In this document: piece after piece, positions 31,759-45,674 of the stretch | How positions within the stretch are numbered: position 1 is the stretch's first letter | Layout: each line of letters opens with the position of its first letter | Source of the DNA: an uncultured Gammaproteobacteria bacterium | GTDB taxonomy: Bacteria; Pseudomonadota; Gammaproteobacteria; Ga0077536 | Length of the DNA stretch: 64,000 bases | NCBI GenBank assembly: GCA_938082545.1 | Contig: CALKCL010000021.1 | Span: forward strand, 1 to 64,000 | Reading direction: 5' to 3' | The notes under the pieces: generated by a model | The model's database searches: none | The model's input: only the letters and a program-made list of their open reading frames with translations | Told to the model about the DNA's origin: nothing | Program-made: the position numbers and the translations under genes

Positions 31759-33492
31759 ATGAACAAGAATATTTTTTTAATTGCTAGTGCTGCTGTCGCT
31801 ATGCTAGTGAGCCTATTGGCTTTTGCAGACTCAGTCGAATTAGAGTTTAGCTATACCGGCGAGCCTGTAAGTACCGAAGACCTGTTACAAGGGACGGATA
31901 AGACCGATGGGTGGTTAATGTATGGCGGTAACTACAATAACTGGCGTTATAGCCCTTTAGATGGAATTAACAAAGAAAACGTTGACAAGTTAACTCCAGT
32001 TTGGATGTTTCAGACAGGCCTAACAGGGCAATTATCAGGTTCCCCCATCGTTGCTGATGGAGTCATGTACGTCAGTGCTCCTTACAATAATTTATGGGCT
32101 TTGGATGCACGGACAGGCGAAGTGATATGGCACTTCGAGCACGATATGCCGAGCGATCTAATTTTATGTTGTGGTCCGTCTAACCGCGGCGTGGCTATAA
32201 AAGACGATTTACTTTTTATGGCTACTCTTGATGCAAAGCTTTTAGCTATTCAGCGCTCTAATGGTGAAGTTGCTTGGACTGTCAAACTAGAAGATTATAA
32301 AAAAGGTTACAGTGGAACAAGTTCTCCACTTATCGTCGGTGACATGGTGGTAACTGGCATAGCTGGTGGAGAATATGGCGCACGAGGATTTGTGGACGCA
32401 TATGATACGGATACAGGCAAGATGTTGTGGCGCCGTTACACTGTTCCAAGTGAAGGCGAAAAAGGCGTAGAGACTTGGGCAGGTGATTCGTGGAAAACTG
32501 GCGGTGGTCCAACTTGGGCAATTGGTACTTACGATCCACAGTCCAACACACTCTACTGGCCTGTAGGGAATCCAAGTCCCGACTGGAATGGTGATGTGCG
32601 AGAGGGAGATAATCTATACACGAATTCAGTACTTGCCCTAGAGCCTGAGACAGGCGAGATGAAGTGGTATTTCCAATTTACGCCTCACGACATGTGGGAC
32701 TACGATGCTACAAATGGTTTGATTATTGACGATATAGTCGTCGACGGGAAAACTGTTCGCGCTCTGATGCAGCCCAACCGCAATGGTTACGTATACGTTC
32801 TTGATGCTACGACAGGAGCTTATATCAAGGCCTTTCAGTACACTGATCGTTTGACCTGGAGTACAGGTTTAGACGGCGATGGTCGACCCCAAGTTAACCC
32901 TGAGGCTGTACCCAAAGCTGGTGCGGCTGGCGACCCAGTCTGTCCTGGTTTGAGTGGAGGTCACAATGGATCTTGGAGTTACTCGTACAGTAAATCATCG
33001 GAGCTTATGTATGTGCCTTCAGTTGAATCCTGTATGGGGGTATTCAAGGAAGATATGGTTTATATACAAGGGATTCCTTTTTGGGGTGGTGGTCCCACGA
33101 CTCCTGAGACCGATGACGGATCCAGTTATGGTATTTTAGCTGCAATTGACCCAGTGGCAGGCGAGGTCAAATGGAAGTATCGCAGCGAGTATCCTTTTGT
33201 TGGAGGCGCGTTAGCAACCGCTGGAGGCGTCGTTTTTAGTGGCGATCAAGAAGGCTACGCATTTGCTCTTGATGATGCTACAGGCGATGAACTCTGGAAA
33301 TTCCAAACGGGGTCTTCGGTACGTAGTCAGCCAATCACCTGGCAAATAGACGGCACACAGTATGTTGCGATAGGCAGTGGAATGGGAGGCTTGGTGCCTG
33401 GATTGTCGGGTGCTCCGGAAAAAGGGACTAATGGTAATACATTACTCGTTTTTGCTGTACCGGAAACGGAAACGAAATGGTTCTGGCAATAG
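31759..33492 (+). CDS. PQQ-dependent alcohol dehydrogenase, copy 1 (lanthanide-type Asp motif)
   Basis: The 577-residue quinoprotein starts with a Sec signal peptide (LIASAAVAMLVSLLAFADS). It forms an eight-bladed propeller with Trp-dock repeats such as ALDARTGEVIWHF and ALDDATGDELWKF. The vicinal disulfide Cys137-Cys138 (LILCCGPS) and the catalytic Asp314 in TPHDMWDYDATN are visible. Asp316 two residues later matches the extra ligand of lanthanide-dependent XoxF/PedH enzymes, where MxaF has Ala. No cytochrome-c domain is fused. Periplasmic; substrate unknown, likely an alcohol or aldehyde. The last 16 bases overlap the next gene. Confidence 0.93.
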   Translation: MNKNIFLIASAAVAMLVSLLAFADSVELEFSYTGEPVSTEDLLQGTDKTDGWLMYGGNYNNWRYSPLDGINKENVDKLTPVWMFQTGLTGQLSGSPIVADGVMYVSAPYNNLWALDARTGEVIWHFEHDMPSDLILCCGPSNRGVAIKDDLLFMATLDAKLLAIQRSNGEVAWTVKLEDYKKGYSGTSSPLIVGDMVVTGIAGGEYGARGFVDAYDTDTGKMLWRRYTVPSEGEKGVETWAGDSWKTGGGPTWAIGTYDPQSNTLYWPVGNPSPDWNGDVREGDNLYTNSVLALEPETGEMKWYFQFTPHDMWDYDATNGLIIDDIVVDGKTVRALMQPNRNGYVYVLDATTGAYIKAFQYTDRLTWSTGLDGDGRPQVNPEAVPKAGAAGDPVCPGLSGGHNGSWSYSYSKSSELMYVPSVESCMGVFKEDMVYIQGIPFWGGGPTTPETDDGSSYGILAAIDPVAGEVKWKYRSEYPFVGGALATAGGVVFSGDQEGYAFALDDATGDELWKFQTGSSVRSQPITWQIDGTQYVAIGSGMGGLVPGLSGAPEKGTNGNTLLVFAVPETETKWFWQ

Positions 33493-34334
33493 CTTCCTAC
33501 CCAAGGACACGTCTCTTACTGCTTTTGTTCGGGGCGCTTATATCCTTTGCAGCGCTTGCATTGGAGGGTGAGCGGCTTGCCATTTGTTTTTTAGAAGACA
33601 ACATGCCTTACTCGGACCGAGCCTCGAGTAGTGGTTTCGATTATGAATTAGGCATGAGGGTAGCCGGACTACTAGAAAAAGAATTTAAGCCAGTTTGGAT
33701 ATCTAATAACACTCAGATCCAAGAGATTGAGAGTGACTATCCGTTCAAGCGTCTAGCTCGAGGAGAATGCAGTGTCATCTTAAGTGTGCCTGGTACCTCT
33801 GAGTCTTTTGAAGAAGATGGTGCGGCGATTGTGCTCGGGTCAGCATATTATGCAGCAGCCTTTGAATTAGTCTCGAATAAAACACAGACCAGTCGTAATT
33901 TGCGAAAACTCCGTGGGAAGGAAGTGGCTATTCAATCCCAAACCGTGGCGCATTTTGCATTAAAGATGCTCGGTGCAAAATCTACCACTTACTTCTCAAC
34001 TATAGCTGCGGTAGATGGTGTCGCTCGTGGAGAAGCTGCTGCTGGTCTGTTGTGGGGCCCTACGGTGGGTTGGGTGCTACAAGGGCTGGAGGGAGAGAAC
34101 AAACCAACGTTTGTTGATGATTATGAGCCGCCAGTTGCTTTGCGTTGGAACGTACACTTTGTGACTCGATCGGGTGATGAGAGTCTGCGAAAGCTTGTGA
34201 CTGAAAGCTTAGCTACCATTGACGCTCAGGGCGAACTCAGTGCGTTGATGAAGAAATATAATCTTCCTGATAGGCGACCCTATGACAAGACCTACACTCT
34301 TGGAGCGCTTAACGAATTGCAGTTGGTGCGCTAA
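33477..34334 (+). CDS. Periplasmic binding protein family 3, MxaJ/XoxJ-like
   Basis: The 285-residue product has a signal peptide (RLLLLLFGALISFAALALEG), then LAICFLEDNMPYSD, and a family-3 solute-binding core with LRGKEVAIQSQTVAHFALK and AAGLLWGPTVGWVL. Proteins of this type next to quinoprotein dehydrogenases correspond to MxaJ/XoxJ, which assist PQQ dehydrogenases. The start overlaps the first PQQ dehydrogenase by 16 bases in another frame, and the second PQQ gene follows by 68 bases, so all three likely form one transcript. No transport permease is nearby, which fits an accessory rather than a transport role. Confidence 0.85.
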   Translation: MVLAIASYPRTRLLLLLFGALISFAALALEGERLAICFLEDNMPYSDRASSSGFDYELGMRVAGLLEKEFKPVWISNNTQIQEIESDYPFKRLARGECSVILSVPGTSESFEEDGAAIVLGSAYYAAAFELVSNKTQTSRNLRKLRGKEVAIQSQTVAHFALKMLGAKSTTYFSTIAAVDGVARGEAAAGLLWGPTVGWVLQGLEGENKPTFVDDYEPPVALRWNVHFVTRSGDESLRKLVTESLATIDAQGELSALMKKYNLPDRRPYDKTYTLGALNELQLVR

Positions 34335-34402
34335 TTAAGCGTGCAGCATAAACAACTATTGTGAGTGCCAGATTTACTTAGTTAAAACTTCAGGGGAGTG
34401 TC

Positions 34403-36103
34403 ATGAGAACGAACTGTTTGGTCTTATTAATACTAGCTGCTTCAATTGTTGTCTGCTCTGCATCCGCTGAGGAGAACAGCCCTGTAACTACCGAGCGTCT
34501 CTTAGAGGGGACAGATAACACAAATGGCTGGACCATGTATGGCGGTAATTATGGCAACTGGCGGTATAGTCCTCTTGAAGATATAGATAAAAACAACGTT
34601 GATGAGCTAACACCTGCTTGGATGTTCCAAACAGGGATCGTCGGTCAGCTTTCCGGCTCTCCTATCGTGGTCGATGGCGTGATGTATATGAGCGCACCTT
34701 ATAATAATTTGTGGGCTTTAGATGCTAAGACAGGCGCTGTGATCTGGCACTTTGAGCATGAGATGCCAAGTGATTTGATTCTCTGTTGTGGTCCATCAAA
34801 CCGGGGAGTAGCGATTAAAGGTGACTTACTCTTCATGGCTACATTGGATGCCAAGATACTGGCGATCGATCGCGCGACAGGAGAGGTACGGTGGACTACA
34901 ACGATGGAAGACTACAAGACAGGATATAGCGCGACCAGCGCGCCTTTGATTGTGGGTGATATGGTCATCAGTGGTATTGCTGGCGGAGAATATGGTGCGC
35001 GGGGGTTTATCGATGCATATGACACTATCACAGGAAGGAGGGTGTGGAGACGATATACCATCCCTGCTGCAGGAGAGGTCGGTATTGAGACGTGGGCTGG
35101 GGATTCATGGAAGACAGGTGGTGGTCCGAGCTGGTCAACTGGGACTTATGATCCACAAACGAATTTGCTTTATTGGCCGATAGGGAATCCGAGCCCTGAC
35201 TGGAATGGTGACTTACGCTTAGGTGATAATCTTTATACGAATTCAGTGGTAGCGTTAGAGCCTGAAACGGGGGAAATGAAGTGGCACTTTCAATTTACGC
35301 CTCATGACGTATGGGATTACGATGCCACAAACGGTTTGGTGGTTGCCGATATTGATGTTGACGGGGAAACTGTTCGCGCTCTGATGCAGCCTAACCGCAA
35401 TGGCTATGTTTACACGTTGGACGCGGCGACGGGGGCCTTTCTTAAAGGTTTCCAATATACCGACCGCTTGAATTGGTCTAAAGGTCTTGATACGAACGGC
35501 CGGCCTCAGGTTGATGAAAAGTACACACCAAAAGTTGGAGGCGCTGAAAAATTTATTTGTCCTGGCAATGTGGGCGGGAATAATGGGGCATGGACTTATG
35601 CGTGGAGTCAGGCAACAAAGTTGATGTATGTCCCTTCAGTTGAGTCTTGCGGGAAAATGGTGAAAGAGCATATGACTTTTATGCAGGGAGTACCATTTTG
35701 GGGCGGTGGTCCAGGAGAGACTGAGGGTCAGGTTGGAGATGCGTATGGCACGGTAACAGCTGTCGAGCCTACGACAGGTATCATTCGTTGGAGTTATAAA
35801 AATGATTATCCGATTCTGGCTGGAGCGTTAGCGACAGCGGGTGGTTTGGTTTTTAGCGGGGATCTAGAAGGACACGCGTTTGCATTAGATGATTTAACGG
35901 GTAAAGTATTGTGGAAATTTCAGACAGGCTCCTCGATACGAAGTCAGCCGATTACTTGGAAAGTAGATGGAGAGCAATTTGTTGCCGTTCCCAGTGGCGG
36001 AGGTGGCATTATCGGATCGATCGTTGGAGCTCCAGAGGGTGTTACCCATGGCAGTACAGTGGTAGTTTTTTCTGTACCCAAGTCGAAATGGTTTTGGGAA
36101 TAA
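34403..36103 (+). CDS. PQQ-dependent alcohol dehydrogenase, copy 2 (lanthanide-type Asp motif)
   Basis: The 566-residue paralogue of the first PQQ dehydrogenase has a signal peptide (LVLLILAASIVVCSASAEE), vicinal Cys128-Cys129 (LILCCGPS), catalytic Asp305 and the +2 Asp307 in TPHDVWDYDATN. Both copies end in a KWFW-type C-terminus (SKWFWE versus TKWFWQ), a shared feature. Good GGGGAG ribosome-binding site. Function as for copy 1, with possible different substrate range. No cytochrome or PQQ biosynthesis gene lies in the window, so electron acceptor and cofactor supply are encoded elsewhere. Confidence 0.93.
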   Translation: MRTNCLVLLILAASIVVCSASAEENSPVTTERLLEGTDNTNGWTMYGGNYGNWRYSPLEDIDKNNVDELTPAWMFQTGIVGQLSGSPIVVDGVMYMSAPYNNLWALDAKTGAVIWHFEHEMPSDLILCCGPSNRGVAIKGDLLFMATLDAKILAIDRATGEVRWTTTMEDYKTGYSATSAPLIVGDMVISGIAGGEYGARGFIDAYDTITGRRVWRRYTIPAAGEVGIETWAGDSWKTGGGPSWSTGTYDPQTNLLYWPIGNPSPDWNGDLRLGDNLYTNSVVALEPETGEMKWHFQFTPHDVWDYDATNGLVVADIDVDGETVRALMQPNRNGYVYTLDAATGAFLKGFQYTDRLNWSKGLDTNGRPQVDEKYTPKVGGAEKFICPGNVGGNNGAWTYAWSQATKLMYVPSVESCGKMVKEHMTFMQGVPFWGGGPGETEGQVGDAYGTVTAVEPTTGIIRWSYKNDYPILAGALATAGGLVFSGDLEGHAFALDDLTGKVLWKFQTGSSIRSQPITWKVDGEQFVAVPSGGGGIIGSIVGAPEGVTHGSTVVVFSVPKSKWFWE

Positions 36104-38707: not shown

Positions 38708-39871
38708 ATGTCAGCAAACTTAGAAGAAAAACCAATATTGCGCTACGACCCTAAAACCTTCGGTTATAGCGTCATATCTGACGCACCAGAAGTTGACCAG
38801 ACGCACAAGCCGGGAGAAGTTTATTTTTCTGAAGATGTGATGAAGACCGAGATAGAAGAGATTTTCATGAAAGAATGGCTCCTCGTTGGACGGGTAGAGG
38901 AAGTGGAGAAGTCTGGGGATTACTTTACTCATCAAGTAGCGGATGAACCGGTAGTTGTCGCTAGAGACAAAGCTGGGAACATTCAAGCTTTTGCAAACGT
39001 GTGCAGACATCGCGGAGTAAAGGTCGCCTGGGGGGAAGGCAATACCAAGTATTTCTCATGCCCATATCATGGTTGGGTTTATGGCACTAATGGGGAATTG
39101 GTAGATGCTCAGTATCTAGACAAATCTAAAAGCTTCGATAAAAAGAATTGTTCGCTCCCAAAAATCCGCACTGAAATGTGGGAAGGTTTCATCTTCATAA
39201 ATTTTAATGATGATGCGCAACCACTCATGCATAGTTTGGAAGCGTGGGATTTTCCGAAGACGTATGAACCCTACCAAATGGGTAGATTGAAACTGGCAAA
39301 CAAATTTGCGATGGACATTCCCAGTAATTGGAAATTCCTAAATGAAAATTTAACTGATATTTATCATATAGCTGTTCTCCATGCCGCAACTTTTGGGCCG
39401 GCTCAACCATTAGAAGGGTATAGATATAAAACTTTCGATGGCGGATACCATGGACGCTTTACGGGTGGTACCTTAGTTCCAGAGGGGAAATCCTTATTTG
39501 GTCCCATTCCATGGTTGCCGGAGGAACTTCATAGTGGTGGATTTTCCAGTCATCTCCCTCCAAATGTTGCTTGGTTCCCTCGCTTTGACTATGTGTCAAT
39601 CGGTACGAATTGGCCTATATCGGCAGATAAGAGTGTGTCTATCACCTATCAATTATTCCCAGAAGACCATTTTTCTCAGCCTGACTTCAAGGAAAAAGCT
39701 CAGCAGTATGTTGATTTCTATAGAGCATTTATGGATGAGGATACGGAGATGATCGATGCCTTACAGAAAGGCATGAAATCCCGCTTCTACAAGCCCGGCC
39801 CTGTTTCTCCATTTGAAGCTGGGGTCATGGGTACTATCAAGCATGCTGTTGATGATCTTGGACACGGGTAG
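38708..39871 (+). CDS. Rieske non-heme iron oxygenase, alpha subunit
   Basis: This 387-residue oxygenase has a Rieske centre Cys99-x-His101 (VCRHRG) and Cys118-x2-His121 (CPYHGW). It also has a mononuclear iron site with Asp217, His220 and His225 in DIYHIAVLH. It should hydroxylate an aromatic or heteroaromatic ring, or demethylate a substrate, using electrons from the ferredoxin encoded at 43272-43589. A GGGAGG site precedes the ATG. It is the first gene of a seven-gene operon with a NicX-like dioxygenase 8 bases downstream. No beta subunit or reductase is present. The substrate is not readable; a pyridine-type compound is inferred from the following genes. Confidence 0.95.
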   Translation: MSANLEEKPILRYDPKTFGYSVISDAPEVDQTHKPGEVYFSEDVMKTEIEEIFMKEWLLVGRVEEVEKSGDYFTHQVADEPVVVARDKAGNIQAFANVCRHRGVKVAWGEGNTKYFSCPYHGWVYGTNGELVDAQYLDKSKSFDKKNCSLPKIRTEMWEGFIFINFNDDAQPLMHSLEAWDFPKTYEPYQMGRLKLANKFAMDIPSNWKFLNENLTDIYHIAVLHAATFGPAQPLEGYRYKTFDGGYHGRFTGGTLVPEGKSLFGPIPWLPEELHSGGFSSHLPPNVAWFPRFDYVSIGTNWPISADKSVSITYQLFPEDHFSQPDFKEKAQQYVDFYRAFMDEDTEMIDALQKGMKSRFYKPGPVSPFEAGVMGTIKHAVDDLGHG

Positions 39872-39879
39872 GAAATATA

Positions 39880-40926
39880 ATGCCCCGAGTTACAGATTTG
39901 AGCCCAGAGCTATCTAGTTCGGCACTTATTCTGATGCGCGACATGATGTGTGTTGTTGCCTCTGAGCACGTGTTAATTACCGCTGACGTGAATACTGAAA
40001 AGAGGGCGCTCGATGCATTAGTCAATGCATCGCATAGTTTAGGGGCCAAAGTCGCGAGCATGATATTGGCGCCACCCTTGCCTTTTCAAGGAGGGCTTGC
40101 AGATCCGTACCTACCAGATCCTGTGATAGCCGCTGCGCAGAACTGTGATGCGTGGGTAGATCTTTGCATGCCCTACATGGCTGGTTCGGGCGTTTATGAT
40201 GCAGCCATGAAGAATGGTCGCACGCGTTATTTCCTGGCTGCCGACATCGGTGCGGAAGGTATCATTCGGATCTTCAGCAAGGCTGATCTGGACCAGGTTT
40301 TCTTGGTGTCCGACCTCTTTAATCAGTTATTAGCAGATTCAGCTGGAAAGCATTGTCGGTTCACGACGAAGCTAGGTACTGATGTGAGTTTTACATTAGC
40401 AGATCCTGAGGGCTTGGCAATCGAGCGGGCTACTAAACCTGGTGGCTACTTTGTTCCTGGCACAGTGATGGTCATACCGGAGTTAGATAGTGTTAAGGGG
40501 ACGGTTGTTTGTGAATCTACCTTTCATGAGTATTACACCGTGTTGAATGAGCCATATGTCTTCGAGGTGGATGGTAAAATTCAGGAAGTTACAGGTGGCG
40601 GTACCGAATTACGAGCTATACGCCGCTCGTTACGACGAGCTGGTAACGGCGACTATGGAAATATTGTGCATTTCACTTGTGGTTATCATCCTTCTGCGCG
40701 TTTTACAGGTAAGTCCTTTATCGAGGATCAGCGGGTAATTGGTTGCAATGCGGTGGGGCTTGGATTGCCTCAGTGGATTGATGGGGGTGGCGAAAATCAT
40801 CCTGATTGCGTAATGACAAATCAGTCGTTTTGGATAGACGGGCAGCAGATTATTTCTGAAGGCGACATAGTCGGGCCTTTGGCTTTAGCAGAGGCCGTTA
40901 CCCGATTACAACCGACATACGGATAG
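39880..40926 (+). CDS. NicX-like ring-cleavage dioxygenase (2,5-dihydroxypyridine 5,6-dioxygenase family)
   Basis: The 348-residue protein belongs to the family of 2,5-dihydroxypyridine dioxygenase NicX, which shares its fold with M29 aminopeptidases. His307 and Asp309 in ENHPDC form the HxD pair. With His264 or His270 (HFTCGYHPSA), they fit the 2-His-1-carboxylate iron site I recall for P. putida NicX (His265, His318, Asp320, 350 residues). It would open a hydroxylated pyridine ring to an N-acyl maleamate. It lies 8 bases after the Rieske oxygenase. M29-type aminopeptidase is the alternative; the neighbours favour NicX. Confidence 0.8.
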   Translation: MPRVTDLSPELSSSALILMRDMMCVVASEHVLITADVNTEKRALDALVNASHSLGAKVASMILAPPLPFQGGLADPYLPDPVIAAAQNCDAWVDLCMPYMAGSGVYDAAMKNGRTRYFLAADIGAEGIIRIFSKADLDQVFLVSDLFNQLLADSAGKHCRFTTKLGTDVSFTLADPEGLAIERATKPGGYFVPGTVMVIPELDSVKGTVVCESTFHEYYTVLNEPYVFEVDGKIQEVTGGGTELRAIRRSLRRAGNGDYGNIVHFTCGYHPSARFTGKSFIEDQRVIGCNAVGLGLPQWIDGGGENHPDCVMTNQSFWIDGQQIISEGDIVGPLALAEAVTRLQPTYG

Positions 40927-40976
40927 GTCTTCGAAGTATTTGATAACTAACATCCTCAATTATAAAGCCAACGCAT

Positions 40977-41981
40977 ATGATTCAAACTAGTTATACGGAC
41001 TATCAGCCGGACAAATTTATACTGTCCTCTGGGGAGCCTTTGTTGCAGCCTCGACTAGCGTATACGACCTTTGGCGAGTTGAATCCGGAGGGAGACAATG
41101 CCGTCCTAGTACTGACGCACTTCGGGGGAACTCACGCTCAGAGTCAATACCTAATAGGATCGGAGTTGGCCCTTGACCCCGGGAAATACTTCATTGTAGT
41201 GGCCAATTTATTGGGAAATGGAATGTCCTACTCCCCCAGTGACGGTCTTCGCGCAAGGTTTCCTGTGGTTTCTATGACTGACAATGTTCATTTGCAATAC
41301 CGACTTCTTACTGAGTCATTGGGAATAAAAAAACTGGCTTTGGTGACAGGGCATTCCATGGGAGGGGTAGCGACTTATCATTGGGCGGCTCTTTATCCTG
41401 AACTTGTTTTACGGGCAGCTCCCATTTGTGGCGCCGCTAGAATTTCTGATCATAACTGGGTGTTTTTAGAGGGCATGCGGTCTATCTTAACTTCTGATCC
41501 CGCTTGGAATGAGGGCAACTACGAGACGCCACCAATTCAAGGACTGAAGAATATCGCCCGAGCTTGGGCCGCCTGGCCACCATCGGCACACTTTTATAGG
41601 GATAAATTGTATACCTCTATCGGCTATGAGTCCTTGGAAGAGTATCTCGTGAGCTACTGGGAGACGACTTATTTGGGGATGGATGCGAACAACATCTTGG
41701 CTCAGATTGATACTTGGGAGTCGGCTAATATTTCCGACAATGCGCTATATGGGGGTGATTTTCACAAAGCATTGGCTTCCATTCAAGCGAAAGTCTATGT
41801 AATGCCGTCCACTAGTGATGCATATTTCCCTGTGGAGGACAGTAGCGTAGAGGTGAGCTTTATATCTGATGCGGAATTGAGACCGATAGATTCAAAATGG
41901 GGCCATTGGGCCGGTTCAGGAAGGAATATTGCGGATACAAATTTTATTAACAAGCAACTTGAAGAACTACTTAGATTATGA
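40977..41981 (+). CDS. Alpha/beta hydrolase, homoserine-acetyltransferase-like (candidate N-acylmaleamate hydrolase)
   Basis: The 334-residue protein has the start KFILSSGEPLLQPRLAYTTF and TFGELNPEGDNAVLVLTHFGG, typical of MetX-like alpha/beta hydrolases. The nucleophile elbow is VTGHSMGGVA and the catalytic His lies in SKWGHWAGSG. It replaces the smaller NicD deformylase of the nicotinate pathway, which is also an alpha/beta hydrolase. Here it could remove the N-formyl or other acyl group. Its stop overlaps the start of the amidase by 4 bases (ATGA), so the two are coupled. A role in methionine synthesis is unlikely because of context. Confidence 0.75.
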   Translation: MIQTSYTDYQPDKFILSSGEPLLQPRLAYTTFGELNPEGDNAVLVLTHFGGTHAQSQYLIGSELALDPGKYFIVVANLLGNGMSYSPSDGLRARFPVVSMTDNVHLQYRLLTESLGIKKLALVTGHSMGGVATYHWAALYPELVLRAAPICGAARISDHNWVFLEGMRSILTSDPAWNEGNYETPPIQGLKNIARAWAAWPPSAHFYRDKLYTSIGYESLEEYLVSYWETTYLGMDANNILAQIDTWESANISDNALYGGDFHKALASIQAKVYVMPSTSDAYFPVEDSSVEVSFISDAELRPIDSKWGHWAGSGRNIADTNFINKQLEELLRL

Positions 41982-43285
41982 AGTTGGAAACTCTTACCGC
42001 ATCCCAGGCCGCTAAGCTTTTAGAGAATAAAGAAGTTAGTTCTGTTGAATTAACGCAAGCATGTCTTGACAGGATTGAACTACGCAATGGCGAAGTGGGC
42101 GCATTTGCGCATATAGATCCGGAATTTTCTTTGAAGCAGGCAGCATTGGCCGATTCCGAGCCGCGCCGCTCTAGCTTCCAAGGGGTCCCTTTTGGAGTAA
42201 AAGATGTAATAGATACCAAAGACTTCTTGACTGAGCGAGGCACTCCTATACACGCGGGAAGACAGCCTGTAGCCGATGCAAAGTGTGTGCAATTAATGCG
42301 AGAAGCTGGTGCTGTTTTGTTAGGTAAACTAGTTAGCACTGAATATGCAATGTTCACTCCCAACGAGACGAGACATCCCTTAGATTTAACTCGAACAGCG
42401 GGTGGTTCTTCTAGCGGCACTGGAGCTGCGGTAGCTGATAATATGGTTCCTCTAGCTTTTGGAAACCAGACAGCCGGTTCATTGATTAGACCCGCGGCTT
42501 ACTGCGGGGTTTACGGTCTCAAACCTACGCATGGAACAACGGATGGTGCAGGGATCCTGCCACTTCAGCTTTATTTCGATACTCTAGGTTACATGGCTAG
42601 AAGTGTTGAGGATCTTCAGTCTTTCTATTCGATAGTCAGCCAAGACCAGCAACGTCAGGTATGGAGTGAGAAAAAACGGCCAAAGATTGGGTTATGCCGA
42701 ACGTTTCACTGGAGTTCTGCTGAGAAAGATAGCCAGGCCATGCTACTGAAGACGGGCGAACAATTTGAGCAGTTGGGCTATGAAGTGACCTCTTTTGAAT
42801 TGCCAGAGTCATACTCTAATTTAGTGGCTGTACACCGGAGAATTCTTTACAAAGGGATCAGTGATTCCCTAGCAAAAGATTATGAGTCCTCGGCAGGAAA
42901 AATGAGTGAGGGGTTACTTGAAGTTGTTCGAGAAGGACAAAAGTGCACTGAAGAGGCTTTTATGACTGCTTTTCGTATAGCGGACGCATGTCGTACTGAG
43001 GTCAATGAAATGTTTGGAGATTTAGACGCTATCATTTGTCCCAGCACGCCTAGCGAAGCTCCGGAAGGGTGGGGTACAGGGAGTCCAATTTTCCAAGTAA
43101 TGTGGACCTTGTTAGGGGTTCCATGTTTGAATTTGCCAGTCGGTTTTGGCCCTAACCAAATGCCCTTAGGCGTTCAATTGATTGGCAGAAGATATGACGA
43201 TGCTAACTTGCTTGCTCTGGGCGATTATTTAATGAGAAATTTTAAAAGTATTCAAATAGAGAGTTTTTCAAATGCAAAAAGTTAG
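41978..43285 (+). CDS. Amidase signature-family amidase (candidate maleamate hydrolase)
   Basis: The 435-residue amidase has the triad Lys75 (FGVKD), cis-Ser144 in AGGSSSGTG and nucleophile Ser168 in NQTAGSLIRP. It would release ammonia from a carboxamide. In the nic pathway maleamate is hydrolysed by NicF, an isochorismatase-fold enzyme, so this would be a non-orthologous replacement. It begins inside the previous gene (ATGA overlap) and ends 14 bases inside the ferredoxin gene, showing tight coupling. It is only distantly related to the amidase at 3780-5285. Confidence 0.85.
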   Translation: MKLETLTASQAAKLLENKEVSSVELTQACLDRIELRNGEVGAFAHIDPEFSLKQAALADSEPRRSSFQGVPFGVKDVIDTKDFLTERGTPIHAGRQPVADAKCVQLMREAGAVLLGKLVSTEYAMFTPNETRHPLDLTRTAGGSSSGTGAAVADNMVPLAFGNQTAGSLIRPAAYCGVYGLKPTHGTTDGAGILPLQLYFDTLGYMARSVEDLQSFYSIVSQDQQRQVWSEKKRPKIGLCRTFHWSSAEKDSQAMLLKTGEQFEQLGYEVTSFELPESYSNLVAVHRRILYKGISDSLAKDYESSAGKMSEGLLEVVREGQKCTEEAFMTAFRIADACRTEVNEMFGDLDAIICPSTPSEAPEGWGTGSPIFQVMWTLLGVPCLNLPVGFGPNQMPLGVQLIGRRYDDANLLALGDYLMRNFKSIQIESFSNAKS

Positions 43286-43589
43286 TTTATTCCCAACCTC
43301 GGAACTATCTGAAAATGAAGTCAGGTTGGTTGAAATTGATGGTTACCCACCGATAGCAATTTATAATTTAGCTGGGGATTTTTTCGCCACTGACGATACA
43401 TGCACGCACGGGAATGCATCTATGTCGGAGGGAGATATAGATGGTGACGAGATCTATTGTCCATTTCATATGGGTGCTTTCGACATTAGAACGGGAGAAG
43501 CTACTGTGCCGCCATGCGCGACTCCTTTGAAAACTTACCAAACCGAAGTGGTTGATCAGATGGTTTCTATTTTGTTGGAAAAAGCATGA
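43272..43589 (+). CDS. Rieske-type [2Fe-2S] ferredoxin
   Basis: The 105-residue protein has the Rieske ligands Cys-x-His in DDTCTHGNASMSEG and Cys-x2-His in YCPFHMGAF, plus the C-terminal PLKTYQTEV stretch typical of small oxygenase ferredoxins. It should pass electrons to the Rieske oxygenase encoded by the first gene of the operon. It starts 14 bases within the amidase gene and its stop overlaps the isomerase start by ATGA. A reductase gene is absent from the operon and the window, so electrons must come from a shared reductase. Confidence 0.92.
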   Translation: MQKVSLFPTSELSENEVRLVEIDGYPPIAIYNLAGDFFATDDTCTHGNASMSEGDIDGDEIYCPFHMGAFDIRTGEATVPPCATPLKTYQTEVVDQMVSILLEKA

Positions 43590-44341
43590 ATAAGCGCACT
43601 TATCGGATTGGACAGATAGTTCCTAGCTCAAATATTACCATGGAGACCGAGGTCCCCCTGATGCTATCTAGGGCTGTTGTTCCTAATGATGTTACTTTTA
43701 CTTTTCACTCATCTAGGGCTCCGATGAAAAATGTTTCAGCACCAGAGCTAGCGGCAATGAATGGGCATATGGAACGCTGCGCGCGGGAGCTAAGCGATGC
43801 ACGGATGGATATTATCGCATCGGCATGTTTGGTGGCGATTATGTCACAAGGAGCAGGATACCATAGGAAGACTCAAGCAGAGCTTGAAGCCGTTTGTCAT
43901 GTTGAGGCTCCTGATACTCAGGTGATTACAAGTGCAGGTGCATTAGTAGATTCTTTGAAAGCGATAGGTGCAAAACGTGTTTCATTTATCACTCCGTATA
44001 TGAAAGGTTTGACGGAACTAGTAGCTGGATATATAGAGAATGAGGGGATTAAGGTAAAAGATACGATCTCTTTGGAGATTCCAAACAATCTTGATGTAGG
44101 TGCTCAGGATCCCAAAAATCTGATAGAAATAGTTAAAAGATTAGATACTTCTAAAGTCGACGCAGTTGTTTTGTCCGCGTGCGTTCAAATGCCGTCTCTA
44201 TCCGCATTAGCGGAAGTACAGAAAAGTTTTGATGTCCCTGTTCTTTCAACGGCGGCGGCTACAGTCTTTCAAATACTCAAGGCATTAAACTTGCCCACTG
44301 TCGTGCCTGACGCGGGAGAACTGCTGTCTGGGAAATACTAG
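43586..44341 (+). CDS. Maleate cis-trans isomerase (NicE-like)
   Basis: The 251-residue protein belongs to the Asp/Glu racemase superfamily, in the maleate isomerase branch. It has two catalytic Cys: Cys81 in ASACLVAIMSQG and Cys199 in LSACVQMPSL, the motif pair of maleate isomerase and arylmalonate decarboxylase. It opens YRIGQIVPSSN, as maleate isomerases do. It would turn maleate into fumarate, the end of the nicotinate pathway. It overlaps the ferredoxin by four bases and is followed after 46 bases by an MFS gene. Arylmalonate decarboxylase-like chemistry is the alternative; the presence of both Cys favours isomerase. Confidence 0.87.
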   Translation: MNKRTYRIGQIVPSSNITMETEVPLMLSRAVVPNDVTFTFHSSRAPMKNVSAPELAAMNGHMERCARELSDARMDIIASACLVAIMSQGAGYHRKTQAELEAVCHVEAPDTQVITSAGALVDSLKAIGAKRVSFITPYMKGLTELVAGYIENEGIKVKDTISLEIPNNLDVGAQDPKNLIEIVKRLDTSKVDAVVLSACVQMPSLSALAEVQKSFDVPVLSTAAATVFQILKALNLPTVVPDAGELLSGKY

Positions 44342-44387
44342 TAGCCAGTATCAACACACCATTAGTTATTAAAACATAAGGTATCTC

Positions 44388-45674
44388 ATGTCTCTTTCTC
44401 CAAACGTCTACTCACGACGATCCTCGCGATATTACGCTTTAGGCTTGTTGACTTTGGTGTACACGTTTAATTTTGTGGATCGCCAACTACTGGCTATTTT
44501 GCAGGAGTCGATCAAAGCAGACCTTCTCCTTTCTGACTCTCAATTGGGTTTACTTACTGGGTTTGCCTTCGCGGTTTTCTATGTGCTCGCTGGTATTCCG
44601 ATTGCCCGTTGGGCAGATAGATCAAATAGAAAAAATATTATTGCTCTTGCTATCGGTTGTTGGAGTTTTATGACAGCAATAAGTGGGTTAGTCCAGAGCT
44701 ATACTCAGTTACTGTTGGCACGGATTGGTGTCGGCGTTGGAGAGGCCGGAGGCAGTCCGCCAGCACATTCGATTATTTCTGATATTTTTCCTCCTGAGAA
44801 TCGAGCAAGCGCGCTTGCATTCTATTGTACCGGTATAAATATAGGAGTCTTGGTGGGCTTTTTGTTTGGAGGTTGGCTAAACGAAGTTTTTAGCTGGAGA
44901 GTAGCATTTTTTGTAGTCGGAGCTCCCGGTTTAATAATAGCCTTAATCGTTGGCTTTACATTACGCGAGCCTATTAGAGGATTTTCTGAAAATAAATCTA
45001 CTCCTACCGGTCCACAAGTGTCTTATGGCGTGGTATTTAGTACGCTATGGAATCGCAGATCATTTAGGCATATAGCCGCAGGTGCGGCATTAAATGCTTT
45101 CGCTACATATTCAACGAGTAGTTGGATCGCCTCTTTTATGATTAGAAGCCACGGATTGAGCACTGGGGAGATAGGCACCTGGCTGGCCGCTATTATGGGG
45201 CTAGGAGGTGCATTTGGCGTTTTCTTTGGTGGTTATATAGCAGAGCGATTGGCATTAAAAGATGTTCGATGGTACGTTTGGCTACCTAGCCTCACCGGCG
45301 TCGTGTGTATTCCTTTCTTAGTAGCAACATATTTGGTAAGTGATCCATATCACTCATTTTACCTCCAAATTATTCCAGGTATACTTTTTAACGTTTATAT
45401 AGGAAATGCTTTAGCGATGACGCACGGCCTGGTCGGACTAAGGATGCGTGCTCTATCTTCTGCCATTTTGTTTTTTATATTAAATATTATTGGTTTAGGC
45501 TTGGGGCCTTGGCTTGTGGGAGTTTTAAGTGATGCACTTGCGCCGACTTTTGGAATCGAGTCTCTTCGTTACGCGATGGTGTTTTTGATCCCTCCAGTTA
45601 TGTGTTGGTCAGCCTTACATTTTTATTTAGGGGCAAACTCCCTCGCTTCTGACCTTAAGCAAGCTCCTGACTAG
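44388..45674 (+). CDS. MFS transporter
   Basis: The 428-residue membrane protein has about twelve hydrophobic segments. Motif-A-like GIPIARWADRSNRKNI follows the second helix and LARIGVGVGEAGGSPPAHSII follows the fourth, as in sialate/hexuronate-type (ACS and related) MFS permeases. It is the last gene of the operon after a 46-base gap with AAGGTATC before the start. It likely imports the organic-acid or pyridine substrate of the operon, though the direction of transport is inferred. Confidence 0.92.
   Translation: MSLSPNVYSRRSSRYYALGLLTLVYTFNFVDRQLLAILQESIKADLLLSDSQLGLLTGFAFAVFYVLAGIPIARWADRSNRKNIIALAIGCWSFMTAISGLVQSYTQLLLARIGVGVGEAGGSPPAHSIISDIFPPENRASALAFYCTGINIGVLVGFLFGGWLNEVFSWRVAFFVVGAPGLIIALIVGFTLREPIRGFSENKSTPTGPQVSYGVVFSTLWNRRSFRHIAAGAALNAFATYSTSSWIASFMIRSHGLSTGEIGTWLAAIMGLGGAFGVFFGGYIAERLALKDVRWYVWLPSLTGVVCIPFLVATYLVSDPYHSFYLQIIPGILFNVYIGNALAMTHGLVGLRMRALSSAILFFILNIIGLGLGPWLVGVLSDALAPTFGIESLRYAMVFLIPPVMCWSALHFYLGANSLASDLKQAPD

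Follow-up and report, generated by a model that had tools for sequence, protein, structure and literature searches.

Which compound is broken down by the seven genes at positions 38708–45674 of contig CALKCL010000021.1, where a Rieske-type oxygenase gene stands directly before a distant relative of NicX, the ring-opening dioxygenase of nicotinate degradation? The locus lies in a 64,000-nucleotide stretch from an uncultured marine gammaproteobacterium, referred to here as the window. At a probability of roughly 58 %, our favoured reading is that the operon degrades a pyridine methylated on its nitrogen, either an N-methylpyridone or an N-methylpyridinium compound, with fumarate, formate and methylamine as the products. 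A preliminary description had proposed a nicotinate-like route, with N-methylated pyridine carboxylates as speculative substrates; that description is partly supported, in that the observation is real, conserved and coherent and both its chemistry and its N-methyl suggestion come out strengthened. Of the three outcomes that it had named as refuting it (a 39880 protein clustering with aminopeptidases, a gene order that is not conserved, an isomerase grouping with arylmalonate decarboxylases), none was observed. All seven open reading frames are open and intact on one strand, with families assigned from Pfam and NCBIfam:

38708..39871, + strand: Rieske non-haem iron oxygenase alpha subunit, 387 aa (PF00355 and PF00848); proposed ring hydroxylase
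39880..40926, + strand: NicX-like non-haem Fe(II) ring-opening dioxygenase, 348 aa, of a separate clade (profile and hhalign homology to NicX)
40977..41981, + strand: MetX-like alpha/beta hydrolase, 334 aa (PRK07581); proposed deformylase of the N-formyl maleamate product
41978..43285, + strand: amidase-signature hydrolase, 435 aa (PF01425, E 1.7e-75); proposed N-methylmaleamate amidohydrolase in the role of NicF
43272..43589, + strand: Rieske-type [2Fe-2S] ferredoxin, 105 aa (PF00355; HcaC/AndAb-like); proposed electron donor to the oxygenase
43586..44341, + strand: maleate cis-trans isomerase, 251 aa (4fq7 match, two Cys)
44388..45674, + strand: major facilitator superfamily (MFS) permease, 428 aa (PF07690); lineage-specific, with a possible part in substrate uptake

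The co-orientation and three overlaps first described were confirmed, the overlaps measuring 4 bases (genes 3 and 4), 14 (genes 4 and 5) and 4 (genes 5 and 6), with the ferredoxin gene overlapping both of its neighbours, amidase and isomerase; the remaining gaps are of 8, 50 and 46 bases. At 0.454, the operon's G+C content is like the window's (0.448). The genome to which the window belongs (G000, contig C21) comprises 2.03 Mb, is 88.5 % complete and has the NicX-like gene in one copy.

Conservation of the operon exceeds chance. When 84,980 species genomes were scanned with the NicX-like protein, a search that reaches close relatives only, 11 distinct loci were found; within the window's family the gene occupies the same operon both in congeners and in a second genus. 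The first six genes keep their order and strand in four gammaproteobacterial genomes (L022, L023, L025 and L031), while L030 has five of the six up to the end of its contig; L024, L030 and L032 are all cut by contig ends. The MFS gene was seen in the window alone: in L022 and L023 it does not follow maiA, and in L025, L030 and L031 another gene takes that place. The conserved unit is therefore reduced from the seven genes originally proposed to six. At the other end of the operon, in the window as in every close orthologous locus covering both, the Rieske gene lies immediately 5′ of the NicX-like one. Further afield, a Longimicrobiales genome (Gemmatimonadota) keeps the Rieske, NicX-like and hydrolase genes near a contig end, and Pseudomaricurvus alkylphenolicus (L029) has the set as maiA-Rieske-nicX-reductase-hydrolase-amidase-ferredoxin, the reductase being its own AndAa/HcaD-like ferredoxin reductase. 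That these genes stay together in a new order indicates that their linkage survived rearrangement. In a separate case (L074:699-3032, G028:C73), a NicX-side protein adjoins a Rieske oxygenase 36–39 % identical to that of the operon, suggesting that the pairing of Rieske and NicX-type enzymes may have more than one origin or have spread repeatedly.

The clue to the substrate comes from P. alkylphenolicus. Here the operon runs on, on the same strand and with gaps of at most 72 bases, into VOC-ridA-gmaS-mgsA-mgsB-mgsC, and the nearest solved structure to the linked gmaS product is a glutamate-methylamine ligase (9qur, E 1.8e-199). Upstream, also on the same strand, are purU, folD and four sarcosine-oxidase-like genes fitting mgdABCD, separated from the operon by a sigma-factor-like/anti-sigma-like pair, TonB receptor genes and a gene of the Old Yellow Enzyme family. 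Among the 144 genomes of its family, P. alkylphenolicus is the sole carrier of the NicX-like gene; a close mgsC occurs in 3/144, and P. alkylphenolicus has two copies. The window genome has a complete mgdABCD-mgsABC-gmaS cluster on another contig (L067, G000:C29:27-36 kb), its GmaS being nearest to RhGmaS (7cql, E 1.2e-190), as well as methylamine dehydrogenase genes (mauB, mauA and mauD/E-like; L119, G000:C20:1565-4433). Two methylamine routes, methylamine dehydrogenase and the N-methylglutamate pathway, are thus found within one 2-Mb genome. Another operon carrier, G028, is without a close mgsC or gmaS, yet has mauB and mauA. Taken together, the linkage in P. alkylphenolicus and the methylamine genes of G000 and G028 make methylamine the most likely product of the operon. 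The earlier suggestion of an N-methylated substrate gains from this linkage and from the methylamine-oxidising genes of the window genome; its narrowing to homarine or trigonelline does not.

From the gene families, their active sites, their clustering and the methylamine linkage we infer a set of reactions, their order and an N-methylated substrate. The Rieske oxygenase, served by the operon's ferredoxin and a reductase encoded elsewhere, would convert the ring to N-methyl-2,5-dihydroxypyridine (5-hydroxy-1-methyl-2-pyridone), which the NicX-like Fe(II) dioxygenase would open to N-formyl-N-methylmaleamate; NicX itself yields N-formylmaleamate in nicotinate degradation (PMC7910607). Removal of formate by the alpha/beta hydrolase would leave N-methylmaleamate, to be split by the amidase into maleate and methylamine. 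Maleate would pass to fumarate through the isomerase, and methylamine would enter either the GmaS/Mgs/Mgd pathway or methylamine dehydrogenase. The scheme retraces the established chemistry of nicotinate breakdown, except that an N-methyl group would be retained along the way. No aldehyde dehydrogenase gene lies within the operon, and this, together with the presence of a maleate isomerase, would fit a ring that has already reached the oxidation level of a dihydroxypyridine. Possible entry compounds are N-methyl-2-pyridones, pyridones derived from N-methylnicotinamide, trigonelline and homarine.

Neither Pfam nor NCBIfam gives a match to the 39880 protein, the proposed ring-opening enzyme, and as a single sequence it matches nothing in the PDB, but a profile of nine orthologues has a sole match there, NicX (7cn3, E 0.0019), and with two plasmid relatives added (hmmsearch) NicX is recovered at E 1.5e-5, with no other match up to E 5. 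An hhalign comparison of the 39880 alignment with six NicX-type reference sequences, one of which (L085) matches 7cn3 at 1.3e-96, gave 99.4 % and E 6e-22 over 300 columns, indicating full-length homology. Identity to NicX 7cn3 is only about 25 %, although the Fe ligands are retained, His264/His307/Asp309 corresponding to NicX His265/His318/Asp320 and being invariant in 10 sequences. NicX employs Ser302 as a fourth Fe ligand, and Glu177 and His189 bind the C2 oxygen of its dihydroxypyridine substrate (PMC7910607). The Ser302 equivalent is missing from the window protein (Pro or Leu, by alignment), while Glu177 aligns with Ile181 and His189 with a gap, leaving these substrate residues without a counterpart in the alignments.

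In the tree, the window clade groups with plasmid relatives from Agrobacterium T29 and Variovorax SRS16, apart from NicX and the other NicX-like proteins (support 100/100), and the 39880 protein is not nested inside the NicX clade. The proposal of a NicX-like dioxygenase stands as to type, through the profile and hhalign results and the Fe triad, but the protein lies outside the NicX clade and is without Ser302, Glu177 and His189. The term NicX-like thus denotes, as predicted from sequence, an enzyme of the kind to which NicX belongs and not NicX itself. The two plasmid relatives differ in their settings. On plasmid 3 of Variovorax sp. SRS16 (L088:12805-17053), an M20 hydrolase, a NicX-like protein, a Rieske oxygenase and an alpha/beta hydrolase are encoded in a row, with a separate nic-type set about 7 kb off on the other strand; shared with the operon are the adjoining NicX-like (44 %), Rieske (36 %) and alpha/beta hydrolase genes, whereas the M20 hydrolase replaces the amidase and the stretch examined has no match to the window's maleate isomerase. 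No Rieske match was found in the stretch examined around the Agrobacterium T29 relative (L087), which was left out of the pathway argument.

NicX genes are often labelled ‘leucyl aminopeptidase’ in plasmid records, and this habit of annotation is what might commend the idea of an M29-type aminopeptidase encoded at 39880, within an operon for peptide or amide salvage. The M29 family, PF02073, has no match in the protein or anywhere in the window's genome, and the PDB profile search gives NicX only, with no M29 peptidase; the identity was rejected, and such a salvage operon is highly improbable. An AlphaFold2 model built from the nine-row alignment had a mean predicted local distance difference test (pLDDT) score of 55.6, too poor for fold comparison. 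The L085:8577-9632 protein matches solved NicX at E 1e-96 and has no Pfam-A match at E 0.001. A NicX-like C-terminal remnant, 49 % identical and in two pieces, is present in Cupriavidus metallidurans pMOL30 (L089:6001-6320) and in three other Cupriavidus records; it adjoins split nitronate monooxygenase genes and looks like a decayed gene.

Among the enzymes proposed to act after ring opening, the isomerase is 56 % identical to that of a Pantoea nic cluster (56–60 % across nic-cluster isomerases), matches maleate isomerase 4fq7 at E 4.3e-79 and also 2xec, and has C81 and C199 present in all six sequences. Arylmalonate decarboxylase, the other identity considered for the 43586 protein, is matched far more weakly (E 1.6e-8) and was rejected; judged by sequence, the protein is a true two-Cys maleate isomerase, as first described. 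The alpha/beta hydrolase scores above the PRK07581 cut-off (E 1e-126) and keeps its triad, S127/D281/H310, in 7 sequences; in BLASTP it showed no significant similarity to the hydrolase of a nic cluster. The amidase has its Ser-Ser-Lys residues (Lys75, the Ser of GGSSSG and Ser168) conserved in 6 sequences.

NicD, NicF and NicE carry out later steps of the nicotinate pathway. Set beside the nic cluster and its maleamate pathway (NicAB, NicC, NicX, NicD, NicF, NicE), the operon shares a NicX-type dioxygenase with its Fe triad, a closely similar isomerase, and a hydrolase and amidase. It differs in having a Rieske oxygenase and ferredoxin where nic has a molybdenum hydroxylase and a flavin adenine dinucleotide (FAD) monooxygenase, a MetX-like hydrolase for NicD, and an amidase-signature enzyme for the isochorismatase-like NicF. 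Annotated nic clusters (L100 and L101) contain the molybdenum hydroxylase, FAD monooxygenase and isochorismatase-family amidase; by Pfam and NCBIfam, none of the NicAB, NicC, NicD and NicF families is found in the operon. Of the nicotinate-like lower steps proposed at the outset, a maleamate-type pathway behind a Rieske front end is upheld, but the alpha/beta hydrolase is unlike the NicD type. On the N-methylpyridine reading, NicF would have been replaced by an amidase because N-methylmaleamate is a secondary amide.

The same lower steps would serve a ring with an unsubstituted nitrogen, in which case the Rieske product would be 2,5-dihydroxypyridine or something closely analogous, and ammonia would be freed from maleamate by the amidase, as it is by NicF. 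The NicX-like and isomerase parts fit plain maleamate equally well, amidase-signature enzymes cleave primary amides, and a relative of the alpha/beta hydrolase in Paraburkholderia FT54 adjoins an amidase, a cytosine permease and a formamidase-family gene. We consider this explanation unlikely, as it leaves unexplained both the second gmaS-mgsABC set in line with the P. alkylphenolicus operon and the changed residues of the NicX pocket.

At the front end, the nearest solved structure to the Rieske subunit is the carnitine monooxygenase CntA (E 1.5e-39), and the Rieske ligands (C99/H101/C118/H121), bridge (D217) and Fe site (H220/H225/D345) are conserved in 9 sequences; the cluster ligands of the ferredoxin, C44/H46/C63/H66, are likewise intact and kept in its orthologues. 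The best-scoring curated model is that of GbcA, but at 158 bits against a cut-off of 670, and Asp217 aligns with a Glu at the bridging position of CntA. A betaine-demethylase identity was rejected on these two grounds, the score under the GbcA cut-off and the Asp bridge. The operon thus has in common with the CntA and GbcA systems its nearest solved structure and best curated model, and differs in having a Rieske ferredoxin.

CntA acts on a betaine, and this likeness bears on a narrower form of the N-methylpyridine reading, in which the substrate is specifically homarine or trigonelline, N-methylpyridine carboxylates of marine or plant origin, and the Rieske enzyme both hydroxylates the ring and removes the carboxylate. 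As much as 3 % of the particulate carbon in surface ocean waters is homarine (PMC8269262), which adds to its appeal. A single Rieske enzyme would nevertheless need to perform both hydroxylation and decarboxylation, and it has Asp217 at the bridge where CntA has Glu. For trigonelline, the established first step is ring opening by TgnA/TgnB (PMC8269262); the operon's pathway would share with this route and with a reported homarine pathway the N-methylpyridine class of substrate and the downstream metabolism of methylamine and N-methylglutamate. A homarine pathway reported in 2026 uses N-methylglutamate dehydrogenase (Mgd), according to the passage of PMC13390433 that cites it (ref. 55). With these points set against it, restriction to homarine or trigonelline seems quite unlikely. 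Ferrer-Gonzalez et al. are said to have described, in 2026, an operon homABCDER that forms N-methylglutamate instead of methylamine and maleate, which would be a different route; if that homarine operon holds the genes described here, the pathway is already known.

Several points weigh against an N-methylated pyridine as substrate. As NicX Glu177, His189 and Ser302 have no clear counterpart, the ring substrate may differ by more than the N-methyl group. Second copies of the Rieske and NicX-like genes, 69–74 % identical, occur at L027:8793-11029 (G027:C71) and L028:380-2636 with no amidase or isomerase alongside; since only the pair is carried there, these two genes form the tightest unit. A direct link between operon and methylamine genes is found in one species only, and mgs genes are common in the window's family even where the operon is lacking, making those of the window genome weak evidence; co-occurrence within that family was set aside, and the weight rests on P. 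alkylphenolicus. Finally, the window operon is without a ferredoxin reductase gene of its own, and the best candidate in its genome, only 36 % identical to that of P. alkylphenolicus, is unlinked to it.

Some of the same evidence suits a dioxygenase that opens a hydroxylated ring other than pyridine, with the amidase and isomerase handling another cis-enedioic monoamide or a substituted analogue. The clade is far from NicX (the 100/100 branch), three functional NicX residues are gone, and the L027 copy is placed with coenzyme A (CoA) ligase, MaoC-like and CitE-like genes. Such a ring is nonetheless decidedly improbable, since an isomerase so close to those of nic clusters, a NicX-type dioxygenase and the methylamine genes all point to an N-methyl N-heterocycle. 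The L027 pair has a PanB-like gene beside the others named, a setting that could suit a ring-methylated substrate leading to citraconate or mesaconate.

About 2.6 kb 5′ of the operon, at 31759-36103 of the window, two pyrroloquinoline quinone (PQQ)-dependent alcohol dehydrogenases flank a MoxJ-like binding protein, the second dehydrogenase being of the methanol/ethanol family; similar genes lie upstream in L023.

Among the papers searched for a NicX–Rieske pathway, N-methylmaleamate catabolism and homarine genes, none described such a route. The chances are about even that the operon represents an undescribed aerobic N-methylpyridine pathway: a Rieske oxygenase would supply the substrate for a new NicX-type clade, and the route, carried between marine and other bacteria by horizontal transfer, would be a natural source of methylamine not recognised before. 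N-methylpyridines are plentiful in the sea, as the homarine figure shows (PMC8269262), and methylamine is important there as a nitrogen and trace-gas compound (PMC7948447). The dioxygenase clade named here is new and has a changed active site, and the cultured carrier P. alkylphenolicus KCTC 32386 allows direct testing. If the proposal is true, a cluster tying N-methylpyridines to methylamine would allow an unseen flux to be marked by sequence and would add another solution to the opening of the pyridine ring.

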